Shown: piece after piece, positions 15,374 to 19,371 of the stretch
Position numbering within the stretch: position 1 is the first letter of the stretch
Layout: each line of letters starts with the position of its first letter
From: Brevundimonas viscosa
GTDB taxonomy: Bacteria; Pseudomonadota; Alphaproteobacteria; Caulobacterales; Caulobacteraceae
Assembly: GCF_900116065.1 (NCBI RefSeq)
Contig: NZ_FOZV01000004.1
Span: forward strand, 186,001 to 250,000
Direction: 5' to 3'
DNA: 64,000 nucleotides
Notes under the pieces: generated by a model
Databases searched by the model: none
What the model saw: only the letters and a program-made list of their open reading frames with translations
Told to the model about the DNA's origin: nothing
Position numbers and translations under genes: made by a program

Positions 15374-15835
15374 ATGCCGGAGACCCGCAGCGAAATCTGG
15401 TTCTACCACCTGGAGCGCTCGGGGCTGCCGGAGGTCCTGCCGGGTCTGCTCGACAAGACACGCGAGCGGGGCTGGCGGGCGCTGGTTCGGGTCAACAGCG
15501 CCGGTCTGCTGGACGAGATCGACGAGCAGCTGTGGACCTGGCGGGACGAAGCCTTTCTGGCCCACGGGCGGGCCAGCGAGCCCCACGCCGAGCGCCAGCC
15601 GATCCTGCTGAGCGAAACCGGCGAGAACCTGAACGGCGCTCAGGCGCTGTTCATCGTAGACGACGCAGAGCTTGGCGATACGGAGAGCTACGAACGATGC
15701 TTCATCATCTTCGACGGGCGGGACGAGCGATCCCTGACGGCCGCCCGGGAGCGGTGGAAGGTGCTGAAGCAGGGCGGGGCGAACCTGGCCTATTGGCGGC
15801 AGTCGCCGGAAGGGCGCTGGGAAAAGGCGGCCTGA
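15374..15835 (+). CDS. holC: DNA polymerase III chi subunit HolC
   Basis: This 153-residue protein matches the chi clamp-loader accessory subunit: EIWFYHLERSGLPEVLPGLL at the N-terminus, then RGWRALVRV, DEQLWTWRDEAFLAHG, QPILLSETGENLNGA and LFIVDDAELGD. Chi links the clamp loader to single-stranded DNA-binding protein in the replisome. The region downstream starts an array of small lipoproteins whose first member begins inside the holC end. Confidence 0.92.
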   Translation: MPETRSEIWFYHLERSGLPEVLPGLLDKTRERGWRALVRVNSAGLLDEIDEQLWTWRDEAFLAHGRASEPHAERQPILLSETGENLNGAQALFIVDDAELGDTESYERCFIIFDGRDERSLTAARERWKVLKQGGANLAYWRQSPEGRWEKAA

Positions 15836-16152
15836 TCGCTCTCGCCGCCCTCGCGGGCTGCGCCAGTCCCGCCTCCGACGCGCCGGCCCCGAGGGCGGTG
15901 GAGCAGGCCCAGGTGAGCCTCGCGCCGGTCGGCAGTCGGGTGCCGCAGGATTCGACGACCGACCTTTGCCGGGCGGGCGAGCTGCAGTGGCTGGTCGGGA
16001 AACCGAAGACGGAGATTCCCGTTCCGGTGAACGTGGTGAACCGCCGCGTCACCTGCACCACCTGTCCGATCACCGAGGACTTCTCGCCCTACCGGCTGAA
16101 CATCTTCTTCAATGCGCAGACCGACGTCGTCGAACAGGTCCGCTGCGGCTGA
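15793..16152 (+). CDS. I78-like lipoprotein, copy 1, with CTTC motif
   Basis: This about 119-residue product has a lipoprotein-type N-terminus (GLIALAALAGCASP), then DLCRAGELQWLVGKPKTEIP, then RRVTCTTCPITEDFSPYRLN and a terminal QVRCG. The second half follows the peptidase-inhibitor I78 pattern (T-x-D-x-x-P-x-RLN ... V-x-CG). The start is uncertain: TTG at 15793 inside the holC end is proposed because no ATG fits; GTG at 15754 is an alternative. It is first of four related genes in a row. Confidence 0.68.
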   Translation: MAAVAGRALGKGGLIALAALAGCASPASDAPAPRAVEQAQVSLAPVGSRVPQDSTTDLCRAGELQWLVGKPKTEIPVPVNVVNRRVTCTTCPITEDFSPYRLNIFFNAQTDVVEQVRCG

Positions 16153-16168
16153 TCCAAGGAGCCTTGCC

Positions 16169-16459
16169 ATGAGAATGCTGATGCTGAGTCTGGCCGCCGC
16201 GGGTCTGATGGCCGGTTGCGCCGCGCCAGTCGATCCGGGACCGGGGAACCCGTCGGATGGCGCGCCGACCCAGTGCCGGGCCGACCAGTATCGCTATCTG
16301 ATCGGTCGCAACCGTTCCGAGATCCCGCCGACGCCGGCCGGCCAGACCTGGCGGGTGGCGTGCACCACCTGTCCGGTGACGATGGACTACAATCCGAACC
16401 GGCTGAACATCTTCTACGACGAGGCGACCGGCGTGATCCGCCGGGTCGAGTGCGGATGA
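16169..16459 (+). CDS. I78-like lipoprotein, copy 2, with CTTC motif
   Basis: This 96-residue protein has a clean lipoprotein signal (MRMLMLSLAAAGLMAGCAAP) and AAGGAG as ribosome-binding site. The mature part reads QCRADQYRYLIGRNRSEIP, WRVACTTCPVTMDYNPNRLN and RRVECG. Known I78 proteins are small inhibitors of serine proteases. In classic members the position of CTTC is a Pro-Gly-type turn, so this copy carries an extra CxxC. The last four bases overlap the next start (ATGA). Confidence 0.82.
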   Translation: MRMLMLSLAAAGLMAGCAAPVDPGPGNPSDGAPTQCRADQYRYLIGRNRSEIPPTPAGQTWRVACTTCPVTMDYNPNRLNIFYDEATGVIRRVECG

Positions 16460-16740
16460 GCCGGTGGCCGATCCCGGCGGCGGGCGCGCTGCTCGTCGCC
16501 GCCTGTGCGCCGACCCCGTCGGCCGGTCCGGCGGCGGGTCCGGGGGGGCCGGAGCGCTGCGACGCCGAAGGGGCCCGGTCGCTGATCGGAACGCATGTCG
16601 GGGCCGTGACCTTCCCGCAGGACGCCAACGTGCGCATCGTCTGCACCACCTGTCCGACGACCCGCGACTACCGGCCGGACCGGCTCAACGTCCGCTTCGA
16701 CCAGACCACCGGCATCATCAGGAGCGTCGATTGCGGCTGA
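16456..16740 (+). CDS. I78-like lipoprotein, copy 3, with CTTC motif
   Basis: This 94-residue protein has lipobox VAACAP, then RCDAEGARSLIGTHVG, VRIVCTTCPTTRDYRPDRLN and RSVDCG. It starts with ATG overlapping the stop of copy 2 by four bases and so is translationally coupled to it. The CTTC segment matches copies 1 and 2 exactly while flanking residues differ, which argues that the cysteines are under selection. Confidence 0.82.
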   Translation: MSRWPIPAAGALLVAACAPTPSAGPAAGPGGPERCDAEGARSLIGTHVGAVTFPQDANVRIVCTTCPTTRDYRPDRLNVRFDQTTGIIRSVDCG

Positions 16741-17081
16741 TCGCCCTCTCCCTCGCCGTGGCCGCCGCCCTGGCGGCCTGCAGCGAGTCGCCCGCTCCGG
16801 CCGGCCCGGAGCCGACGCGCACGCCCGCAGCGCCCTCGATGGCCGCGGCTCCCCCGGCGGAAGAGGTTTCCCCGCCGCCGGCCCCGGGCGACGACTGCGG
16901 CGCGGCCGGGCGGCGGGACTGGGTCGGACGGGCCCGGGCCGACCTGCCCGAGGCTCCGGCCGGCGCGAACTGGCGCGTCTACGAGACCGGCCAGCCGGTG
17001 ACCCAGGACCTCCGTCCGGACCGGCTGAACATCGAGATCGATCCGGACAGCCAGACGGTGGTGCGCCTCAGCTGCGGCTGA
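16731..17081 (+). CDS. I78-like lipoprotein, copy 4, without CTTC
   Basis: This 116-residue protein starts at TTG 16731 (MRLIALSLAVAAALAACSES), overlapping copy 3 by ten bases and preceded by AGGAG. A Pro/Ala-rich linker leads to DDCGAAGRRDWVGRARADLP, WRVYETGQPVTQDLRPDRLN and VRLSCG. ETGQ stands where the other copies have CTTC, making this the member closest to ordinary I78 inhibitors. It ends three bases before the convergent DsbA-like gene. Confidence 0.78.
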   Translation: MRLIALSLAVAAALAACSESPAPAGPEPTRTPAAPSMAAAPPAEEVSPPPAPGDDCGAAGRRDWVGRARADLPEAPAGANWRVYETGQPVTQDLRPDRLNIEIDPDSQTVVRLSCG

Positions 17082-17084
17082 GGC

Positions 17085-17876
17085 TCAGCCGCGCGCCTTG
17101 GCCTCGCGGATGGCGCGGTCGACGTCGGCCGGCTGGATGCTGGGGCTGGCGCGGCCGTTGATGAAGAAGGTGGGCGTGCCGACCAGGCCAAGGGTCTGGG
17201 CCGCCGCCTGGATTTCGGTCAGGTGCCGCGCGACGTCGACGCCCTGCATCGCCGCCTCGGCCTGCGGCAGGGAGACGCCGTTGGCGGCGAGGATGCGGTC
17301 GACCGCGGCCGGGTCGAGCGCCGGCTCGGCCATCAGGTCCCGGAACACCGGCAGATACCTGCCCTGGCGATGCGCCGCATTCGCCGCGCGCGCGGCGTAG
17401 TGGGAGGTGACCTCCGTGCCGCGGTCGAGGATCGGCCAGTCCTTGAACACGAAGCGCACGTCGGGGTGGGCCTGCATCAGGCGCAGCACCTCGGGAGCGG
17501 TGGCCTTGCAGCCGGGGCAGCGGAAGTCGAAGAACTCGATCACCGTGACCTCGGCGTCGGCGGGGCCGAAGGCGGGATCGTCGGCGTCGACCGCGAGCAG
17601 ACCGGGGTCGGCGGCGGCGCGCCGGTTGATGGCGTCGGCCAGGGCGTTGTCCTGGTTGGCCTGCAGCGCCGTGCTCATCTCCTGCAGGATCTCGGGGTTC
17701 TCCAGCAGGTAGCCGCGGACCTTCTGGTCGAACGATCCGCCGCCCGTGACGTACGGGACGACGGCGACGGCCAGGGCGAGGGCGGACATGGCCACGGCCG
17801 CCACGACGCCGCGTTCGGGGGTGAACAGCCGGCGCGCGCGCGGCGGCGAGGGCGTCGTTTCAGGCGCTTCGGTCAT
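17085..17876 (-). CDS. DsbA-family thiol:disulfide oxidoreductase, membrane-anchored (Com1/ScsC-like)
   Basis: This 263-residue protein has a cytoplasmic Pro/Arg start, one membrane helix (AAVAMSALALAVAVVPYV), a short helical region (GYLLENPEILQEMSTAL), then a thioredoxin fold with active site FFDFRCPGCKATAPEV and cis-proline loop LVGTPTFFING. It would form or rearrange disulfides in the periplasm. It is convergent with the CTTC lipoprotein array three bases away and lies just after the M48 protease gene on its own strand. Confidence 0.92.
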   Translation of the reverse strand: MTEAPETTPSPPRARRLFTPERGVVAAVAMSALALAVAVVPYVTGGGSFDQKVRGYLLENPEILQEMSTALQANQDNALADAINRRAAADPGLLAVDADDPAFGPADAEVTVIEFFDFRCPGCKATAPEVLRLMQAHPDVRFVFKDWPILDRGTEVTSHYAARAANAAHRQGRYLPVFRDLMAEPALDPAAVDRILAANGVSLPQAEAAMQGVDVARHLTEIQAAAQTLGLVGTPTFFINGRASPSIQPADVDRAIREAKARG

Positions 17877-17896
17877 GCGATCGGTTGTTCCCTGGT

Positions 17897-19306
17897 TCAG
17901 CCGCCGACAGGTACGACGGCGGGTCGGTTCCGGCTGTTGCGGCGGTCGAGCGCGTCGACGTCGTCCTGGGTGGCGCCGGAGGCGAAGACGATGTCCATGG
18001 CGCGGGTGTATTCGGCGGTCCCGGGCTGGAGCATGTCGCGCGCGCGCAGGGCGAACTGGGTGGCCTGCTCCTCGGCGCCCATGGCGAAGTACATCTCGGC
18101 CGAGGCGAGGCGCGCCTCGCCCTCCTTGCCCTGGCTGGCGTAGGCCTGCGACAGCAGCCGCCAGGCCATGGTGTTGTCGCGCTCCAGCGCGGCCGCCCGC
18201 TTCAGATGGTCGACGGCGCCGGCCAGCAGGCCGGCGTCCCGGGTCTCGATCATGGCGTGCGCCAGGTTGATGCGCAGCAAGGGGGCCTCGGGCATCAGGT
18301 CGACCGCCTTCTGGTGCGCGCCGATGGCTTCCGCCGGGCGGCCCTCCTCGAACAGGATCTGGCCGCGCAGCTCCCAGAAGAAGGCGTTCTGCGGTTGCTC
18401 GGCGAGCAGGGCGTCCACCGCCGCCAGGGCGCGTTCGGTCTGGCCGTCGCGGTACCAGGCGATGGCGCGGGCGTAGCGGGCGGGGAGGGAGGCGTCGCTC
18501 TCGGGCCAGGTCCGCAGGGTGGTGTTCGGCGCGTCCATGAAGGCGTGGATCTTGGCCTGGATCAGGGCGTGCTGCGCCATCCGTTCCGGACTGTCGGACT
18601 TCGGATAGCTGGACTGTTCGGCGACGAAGCGGCGCAGGTTCTCGATGCGCTGCGACGACAGGGGGTGGCTGCGGAAATAGGGGTAGCGCCGGGCGTCGGA
18701 GAACACTTCCTGCGAACGGAAATTCTCGAAGAAGGTGAGCAGGCCGCGACCGGATTCGCCGGCGGCCTCGAGGGCGCGGGCTCCGGTGTTGTCGGCCTCG
18801 CCCTCCTGATGGGTCATGTAGCGCAGGGCGCTGAGCGTGCCGAAATACTGGCTGTTGCCCAGCAGCACGGCGCCGGCGTCCGGCGCGCCGGCGGCGATGG
18901 CCAGGGCCCCCAGCGCCATGGTCATCAGCAGCGGCTGCATGCCGGCGTTCTGGGCCCCGTCGCGCAGCGTGTGGCGGTTGCGGATGTGGCCCGCCTCGTG
19001 GGCGATGACGCCGAGCAGCTCGTTGGGGCTGTCGGTGCGGAGGATCAGCCCGGTGTTCAGCCCCATGATCCGGCCGCGGGTGGCGAAGGCGTTCAGCTCC
19101 TCGTCGTTGATGAGGAGGATCTCGACCTCAGACGGCTCAAGACCCATGGCCGAGAACACCGGCGCGGACCACTCGTGGATGATCCCCTCGATCTCGGTGT
19201 CGCGAATGACGCTCTGGGCGGCGGCGGGCGCGGCCGACGCCAGGACGAGCCCGGCGGCGGACGCGGCGCCGATCAGGCGGGCGGCGTTTCGGGACAGCCA
19301 TGACAT
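17897..19306 (-). CDS. Periplasmic M48 metalloprotease with TPR repeats (BepA/YfgC-like)
   Basis: This 469-residue protein has a signal peptide (LIGAASAAGLVLASAAPAAAQ), a zinc protease domain with HExxH in VIAHEAGHIRNRH, a downstream Glu ligand region (HQEGEADNTGARAL), and C-terminal TPR units (AIAWYRDGQTERALAAVDAL, then FFWELRGQILFEEGRPAEAI). BepA-type proteins act in outer-membrane protein assembly and turnover. The start at 19306 (MSWLSRNAARL) is chosen over an upstream ATG at 19354 for signal-peptide quality. The dsbA-like gene follows with a 20-base gap. Confidence 0.93.
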   Translation of the reverse strand: MSWLSRNAARLIGAASAAGLVLASAAPAAAQSVIRDTEIEGIIHEWSAPVFSAMGLEPSEVEILLINDEELNAFATRGRIMGLNTGLILRTDSPNELLGVIAHEAGHIRNRHTLRDGAQNAGMQPLLMTMALGALAIAAGAPDAGAVLLGNSQYFGTLSALRYMTHQEGEADNTGARALEAAGESGRGLLTFFENFRSQEVFSDARRYPYFRSHPLSSQRIENLRRFVAEQSSYPKSDSPERMAQHALIQAKIHAFMDAPNTTLRTWPESDASLPARYARAIAWYRDGQTERALAAVDALLAEQPQNAFFWELRGQILFEEGRPAEAIGAHQKAVDLMPEAPLLRINLAHAMIETRDAGLLAGAVDHLKRAAALERDNTMAWRLLSQAYASQGKEGEARLASAEMYFAMGAEEQATQFALRARDMLQPGTAEYTRAMDIVFASGATQDDVDALDRRNSRNRPAVVPVGG

Positions 19307-19371
19307 GGCGAACTCCTCCAGGCCTCGGACGCCCCCGCCCGTCGTCATCCTCACAATCTAATCGCGGCCTT

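Follow-up and report, generated by a model that had tools for sequence, protein, structure and literature searches.

The elastase inhibitor of Aspergillus fumigatus (AFUEI), in which the N- and C-terminal cysteines are joined, and the members of the potato inhibitor I family are the closest described systems to the proteins discussed here. In the latter family, according to the account in PMC3115953, the residues at P2, P1′, P6′ and P8′ are conserved for a hydrogen-bond network between the binding loop and the core, and in CI-2 a substitution of P2 Thr or of P1′ Glu brings a dramatic rise in the dissociation constant. Furthermore, in rBTI, whose loop comprises residues 39-50 with Arg45 at P1, a disulfide between Cys4 and Cys49 stabilises the binding loop (PMC3115953).

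The locus described here lies in a 64,000-nucleotide stretch of the Brevundimonas viscosa genome (the window) and, as judged by sequence comparison, holds a conserved variant of the I78 family in which a CxxC motif stands at the shoulder of the loop, in a tandem array diversified at the predicted P1 residue. The original prediction of four coupled genes for I78-type lipoproteins between 15793 and 17081 is borne out by the open reading frames, their overlaps, the shared motifs and the lipobox (Table 1). Copies 2 and 3 overlap, as do copies 3 and 4, and the 3' end of holC extends into copy 1. In the alignment, all four copies have the N-terminal Cys of the domain, the motif T-x-D-x-x-P-x-RLN and the terminal CG, copies 2-4 being 31-41% identical to copy 1; the shoulder motif reads CTTCP in copies 1-3 and ETGQP in copy 4. 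Beyond these four, the genome yielded no further I78 match at E <= 1. A lipobox was recognized by rule in 201 of 209 homologous open reading frames, position +2 being Ala or Ser in 171 and never Asp among the 201. A promoter and terminator scan returned nothing resembling a promoter and a single terminator-like site, close to the mean of shuffled sequences.

Table 1. Features of the array and its neighbours (positions in the window).
Feature	Position	Strand	Basis
holC (DNA polymerase III chi subunit), upstream neighbour	15374..15835	+	PF04364, 110.9 bits
I78 lipoprotein copy 1	15793..16152 (TTG start as given; CTG at 15817 likelier)	+	ORF, PF11720 profile, alignment
Copy 1 sites	CTTC 16054-16065; predicted P1 Glu 16075-16077	+	Alignment with AFUEI and eglin c
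I78 lipoprotein copy 2	16169..16459	+	Above PF11720 cut-off
Copy 2 sites	CTTC 16361-16372; predicted P1 Met 16382-16384	+	Alignment; AlphaFold model
I78 lipoprotein copy 3	16456..16740	+	Below PF11720 cut-off
Copy 3 sites	CTTC 16642-16653; predicted P1 Arg 16663-16665	+	Alignment
I78 lipoprotein copy 4, without CxxC	16731..17081 (TTG start)	+	Above PF11720 cut-off
Copy 4 sites	ETGQ 16983-16994; predicted P1 Gln 17004-17006	+	Alignment
Membrane-anchored DsbA/ScsC-like oxidoreductase (CPGC)	17085..17876	-	PF13462, PF01323 and PF18312 above cut-offs

As regards the start of copy 1, a survey of 39 loci of the genus with a copy 1 orthologue points to a protein beginning MGKGGLI..., the start of which overlaps the end of holC. 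Where the GKGG is exactly conserved (31 loci), the codon at this start is CTG in 26, TTG in three, ATG in one and GTG in one. Since 22 of the 39 loci have no ATG, GTG or TTG in the 34 codons preceding the lipobox (L056, whose lipobox is doubtful, is among them), a CTG start is likely, and copy 1 of the window may begin at CTG 15817 rather than at TTG 15793. Two loci of the window's family (L168 and L180) carry an ATG at this position.

The expected match to the I78 profile (PF11720, cut-off 23.6 bits) was obtained for copies 2 and 4 (26.5 and 24.2 bits); copies 1 and 3 align to positions 1-65 of the profile and stay below the cut-off (16.9 and 16.3 bits). The cut-off of PF00280 (24.5 bits) is not reached, the best score being 17.4 bits for copy 2, and in NCBIfam no family was found for copies 1-3, the only match of copy 4 being far below cut-off. 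In a profile search of the PDB with 30 CxxC domains, AFUEI came at the top (E 1.3e-4), followed by eglin c (0.003). In the resulting alignment RVLHPGDMITMEY lies over RVvCttCavTmDy, with C-T-T-C placed over H-P-G-D of AFUEI and the next P-V-T-M-D over M-I-T-M-E. In eglin c, the same aligned stretch is the reactive loop that carries P1. It is from this alignment with the AFUEI and eglin c loops that the CxxC is placed at P8-P5, the predicted junction of strand 1 and the canonical binding loop.

This placement agrees with an AlphaFold model built for the copy 2 domain (pLDDT 92.3): strand 28-33 ends at the first Cys, and the CxxC (model residues 33-36) occupies the strand end with no helix following, unlike the CxxC of thioredoxin-like proteins, which stands at a helix start. 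Foldseek returned nothing at E <= 0.001, its best match being eglin c (1.3e-2, probability 1.00). Among the Foldseek candidates, VIA-align placed eglin c (1cse_I) at Z 7.7, with an rmsd of 1.8 and 58 aligned positions, and AFUEI (3w0d_A) at Z 6.8, all Z values lying below 8, the range where the program warns of mere common arrangements. By alignment and lipobox, and for copies 2 and 4 also by profile, the four window genes are I78-type lipoproteins, and the model of copy 2 predicts an eglin c/AFUEI fold.

The conservation of the motif was followed with a search model of CxxC domains in which the four shoulder columns were masked; it gave 239 aligned rows, 234 once five with more than eight gaps were set aside, and 206 distinct domains. 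Both cysteines of the CxxC are present in 163 of these domains, neither is present in 43, and one alone occurs in 0 of 206, which rules out random residues at the CTTC site and upholds its claimed conservation. The residues between the two cysteines are TT in 125 of the 163, SS in six, TS, ST and HN in four each and HD in three, with KD and AE among the further pairs. No domain of the 206 has an extra Cys outside the four positions. In turn, the N-terminal Cys is found in 206/206 and the C-terminal one in 205/206 (with one gap), and because this terminal pair is kept also in the 43 domains devoid of CxxC, it would constitute an independent unit.

At the DNA level, the second CxxC cysteine (16063-16065, 16370-16372 and 16651-16653 in the window) has TGT as its codon in 31 of the 89 copies of the genus; the other three cysteines of the domain are encoded by TGT in 1, 3 and 7 of 89 and by TGC in 82-88 of 89. 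With this excess of TGT at the second Cys, an explanation at the level of the DNA is retained only in part for the identical tgcaccacctgt block.

The spread of the motif was explored at several taxonomic levels. The first searches of the genus, including a 36-locus survey, relied on patterns that required or favoured the CxxC, and the conservation counts given above are those of the masked model. The named loci L074-L097 partly duplicate genomes otherwise sampled; a same-genus search left one genome (G007, 88% complete) without match. The search of the order matched 111 of 200 genomes, at least three genomes of the same family being without match, and supplied 59 further loci. These 59 stretches are mostly the better-scoring matches, so that the following are family shares and not frequencies: 114 rows with CxxC and five without in the window's family (f1), those five being copy 4-type genes; 15 with and 13 without in family f3 of the same order, both kinds sometimes in one array; and CxxC in 0/5, 0/14 and 0/4 rows of families f2, f4 and f5. 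The records with CxxC copies include those of Brevundimonas, Caulobacter and Phenylobacterium. Three f3 loci (L135, L139 and L151) have mixed arrays behind holC, in which one CHDC-type gene is accompanied by one or two I78 genes of a TPDM/QPDT-like type, and two loci of the genus coded g14 (L131 and L132) have a single-copy CTRC variant with Gln as the predicted P1.

Further away, 46 domains from 44 loci were taken from the class search (nine new loci), the phylum search (30 best-scoring loci, from a search that matched 86 of 398 genomes) and five same-order loci, two of which (L008 and L009) also belong to the 206-domain set. CxxC occurs in 0/46 of these domains; xPGx stands at the site in 27, with Pro at the second place in 38. 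Thus, the claim that in copies 1-3 a CTTC replaces the Pro/Gly turn usual in other I78 proteins is supported, as is the ETGQP of copy 4.

Whether the CxxC proteins form a clade of their own, as also suggested, was addressed with a tree of 59 columns and 126 rows, the latter left after thinning to 85% identity, and this small number of columns leaves many of its forks open. One CxxC clade is not rejected (p-AU 0.42), but it is not shown either, the free tree requiring at least six CxxC changes, of which the starred branches force two. A single origin is therefore compatible with the tree tests, neither demonstrated nor rejected.

The genomic setting is more uniform. holC adjoins the array in 36/36 genus loci (examined over about 5 kb on each side where the contig allowed) and, by clustering, in 61/61 loci of the window's family. 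Moreover, it stands beside the I78 genes in 48 of the 59 further loci (three of which are of the genus), where the common layout is LptF/LptG diverging from pepA-holC-I78, by their Pfam names; PepA is absent from the window stretch used in the clustering. Of the 11 loci that lack holC, two have the CxxC, namely L133 and L150, the latter at a contig end. As the same slot is used by CxxC and non-CxxC genes, the motif would have arisen, or been lost, in place.

The original prediction went on to see in the CTTC a possible redox or metal site. In the redox case, the thiol chemistry of the envelope would reduce and oxidise the shoulder CxxC, switching the rigidity of the loop and with it inhibition. 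CxxC is a usual form of thiol switches, the cysteines are present or absent as a pair across the 206 domains, and a DsbA/ScsC-like gene adjoins the array in the window lineage, all of which speak for such a switch. That gene does lie three bases away, as was pointed out, but it is convergent with copy 4 and hence outside the transcription unit of the array. Moreover, it is near the array in only 4/36 genus loci (the window, L039, L042 and L057), against 36/36 for holC, and the same DsbA query had no match in the 59 further loci, which rules it out as a conserved partner. In addition, the residues between the cysteines, ranging from TT and SS to HN, HD, AE and KD, do not resemble a tuned redox motif, and the model has the CxxC at a strand-loop junction and not at a helix start. 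Redox control is thus improbable, and we are just as sceptical of the more general idea that the CxxC forms a regulated disulfide or metal latch, giving Brevundimonas a repertoire of switchable inhibitors with differing P1. Within 17085-19354 of the window, the DsbA/ScsC-like gene adjoins, on the same strand, a gene for an M48 peptidase with TPR repeats, presumably similar to BepA.

The metal case holds that the CxxC and the N- and C-terminal cysteines together bind zinc or another metal, as the presence of four cysteines (C-x2-C and two more) in CxxC domains would allow. Nevertheless, the terminal pair persists in the 43 domains that have no CxxC, the envelope is oxidising, and the conserved neighbours that could be named, which are only some of them (LptF/LptG, PepA, HolC and an ABC ATPase), are not metal genes, so that a metal site appears very unlikely. 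For both roles there is no positive support beyond the cysteines themselves, and the position of the CxxC at the shoulder would fit a structural disulfide at least as well.

The loop itself offers a further line of evidence. The motif T-x-[DE] ... R-L-N runs through all four copies and the 206 domains, AFUEI having T-M-E...RLN, and within the 206 domains P2 is Thr in 203, P1′ Asp in 197 and P6′ Arg in 204. P8′ is Asn in most genus copies and not the Arg or Trp of potato inhibitor I. By contrast with this frozen frame, in 36 of 37 multi-copy loci of the genus every copy has a different predicted P1, which places the position at the joint top of 64 columns. P1 is not unique in this respect, for columns 9 and 22 also reach 36/37, and by entropy it comes 15th among the 64, by information on the copy group 14th; a stronger argument is for this reason its contrast with the frozen P2 and P1′.

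When the copies are grouped by their likeness to those of the window, P1 is Glu in 26, Gln in five, His in five and Met in two of the 38 members of the copy 1 group, Met in 30/31 of the copy 2 group, and Lys in seven, Arg in five, Met in four, Glu in three, Thr in two and Gln in one of the 22 members of the copy 3 group. Met is also the predicted P1 in 19/22 single-copy loci from further genera (g13, g14 and g15) within the family and the commonest one, with 34/46, in ordinary I78 domains. Accordingly, copy 2 appears to be ancestral, the P1 of copies 1 and 3 being presumably derived, and, being so common, a Met P1 points to no special target. A search for targets in the genome itself gave one subtilisin-type and five Trypsin_2 matches, none of which is singled out.

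The same residues bear on the possibility that the inhibitor fold was kept and inhibition lost, in which case the proteins would be structural or assembly factors of the envelope whose loop binds something else. In the window's family and at many f3 and f4 loci the slot next to holC is fixed, usually with pepA and LptF/LptG close by, which is consistent with such a role, as are three of the 38 copy 1 relatives (L037, L048 and L061), which keep the CTTC, lack both P1′ Asp and P6′ Arg (TEAHSPYLLN) and are possibly non-inhibitory. However, P2, P1′ and P6′ are among the most conserved positions while P1 is free, and for the array at large we consider a loss of inhibition rather unlikely.

Compared with their orthologues in seven loci (seven comparisons each), copies 1-3 have dN/dS values of 0-0.31, and copy 4 has 0.17 against its sole true orthologue among these loci (L039), its six other pairings (0.86-1.42) being with paralogues only and uninformative. 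True orthologues are under purifying selection, and this, together with synteny, rules out chance or artefactual open reading frames.

The reading we prefer, with a probability of roughly 0.55, is that the array encodes canonical-loop serine-protease inhibitors with different P1 residues, in which a local CxxC disulfide braces the loop. Speaking against it are the mostly Asn P8′, the scores of copies 1 and 3 below the Pfam cut-off, the Foldseek and Z values, the three copy 1 relatives that lack P1′ Asp and P6′ Arg, and the rank of P1 by entropy. Each lipoprotein, presumably exposed at the cell surface, would present a convex loop and insert its P1 residue into the S1 pocket of a serine protease; Thr at P2, Asp at P1′ and Arg at P6′, all conserved, would hold this loop to the core, and since they fix it there it would be cut very slowly. 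One ancestral gene behind holC, probably with a Met P1, would have been duplicated, giving rise to copies with Glu, Met, Arg and Gln at P1, and because the copies differ at this position the array should act on proteases with differing specificities, shielding the envelope from those of foreign origin and from endogenous ones that are misplaced. The CxxC at P8-P5 of copies 1-3 would take the place of the Pro-Gly shoulder and, in an oxidising compartment, form a local disulfide that braces the loop and is separate from the N- and C-terminal pair.

If this is true, a bacterial lineage has duplicated one envelope inhibitor and varied its specificity residue within a frozen loop frame, and the array could be seen as a natural multi-specificity set of inhibitors. 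The CxxC in place of Pro-Gly at P8-P5 would suggest, in addition, another way to brace an eglin-type loop.

In the literature searched (titles and abstract openings, with few subscription journals), there was no description of the CxxC variant, of such arrays or of targets of bacterial I78 proteins. In the way they would work, and with no homology claimed, the window proteins can be compared with Omp19 of Brucella, described as an outer-membrane lipoprotein that inhibits proteases (PMC6607954), and with ecotin, described as a bacterial envelope inhibitor of outside proteases (PMC7773321). With potato inhibitor I (eglin c, CI-2 and rBTI; PF00280) they share the predicted fold and the network of P2 Thr, P1′ Asp and P6′ Arg, as set out for that family in PMC3115953, and they differ from it in their scores below the PF00280 cut-off, in a P8′ that is mostly Asn instead of Arg or Trp, and in the CxxC shoulder; the loop disulfide of rBTI, in turn, joins P4′ to the N-terminus and not P8 to P5. 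The likeness to AFUEI (PDB 3w0d) extends over the profile, the predicted fold, the terminal cysteines, P2 Thr, Asp or Glu at P1′ and RLN, and includes, from the AFUEI sequence given in PMC8954713, the Met P1 of copy 2. Where AFUEI has HPGD at P8-P5, copies 1-3 have the CxxC, and the window proteins are further set apart from AFUEI and other I78 proteins as lipoproteins in a tandem array, with varied P1 and with two copies below the Pfam cut-off.
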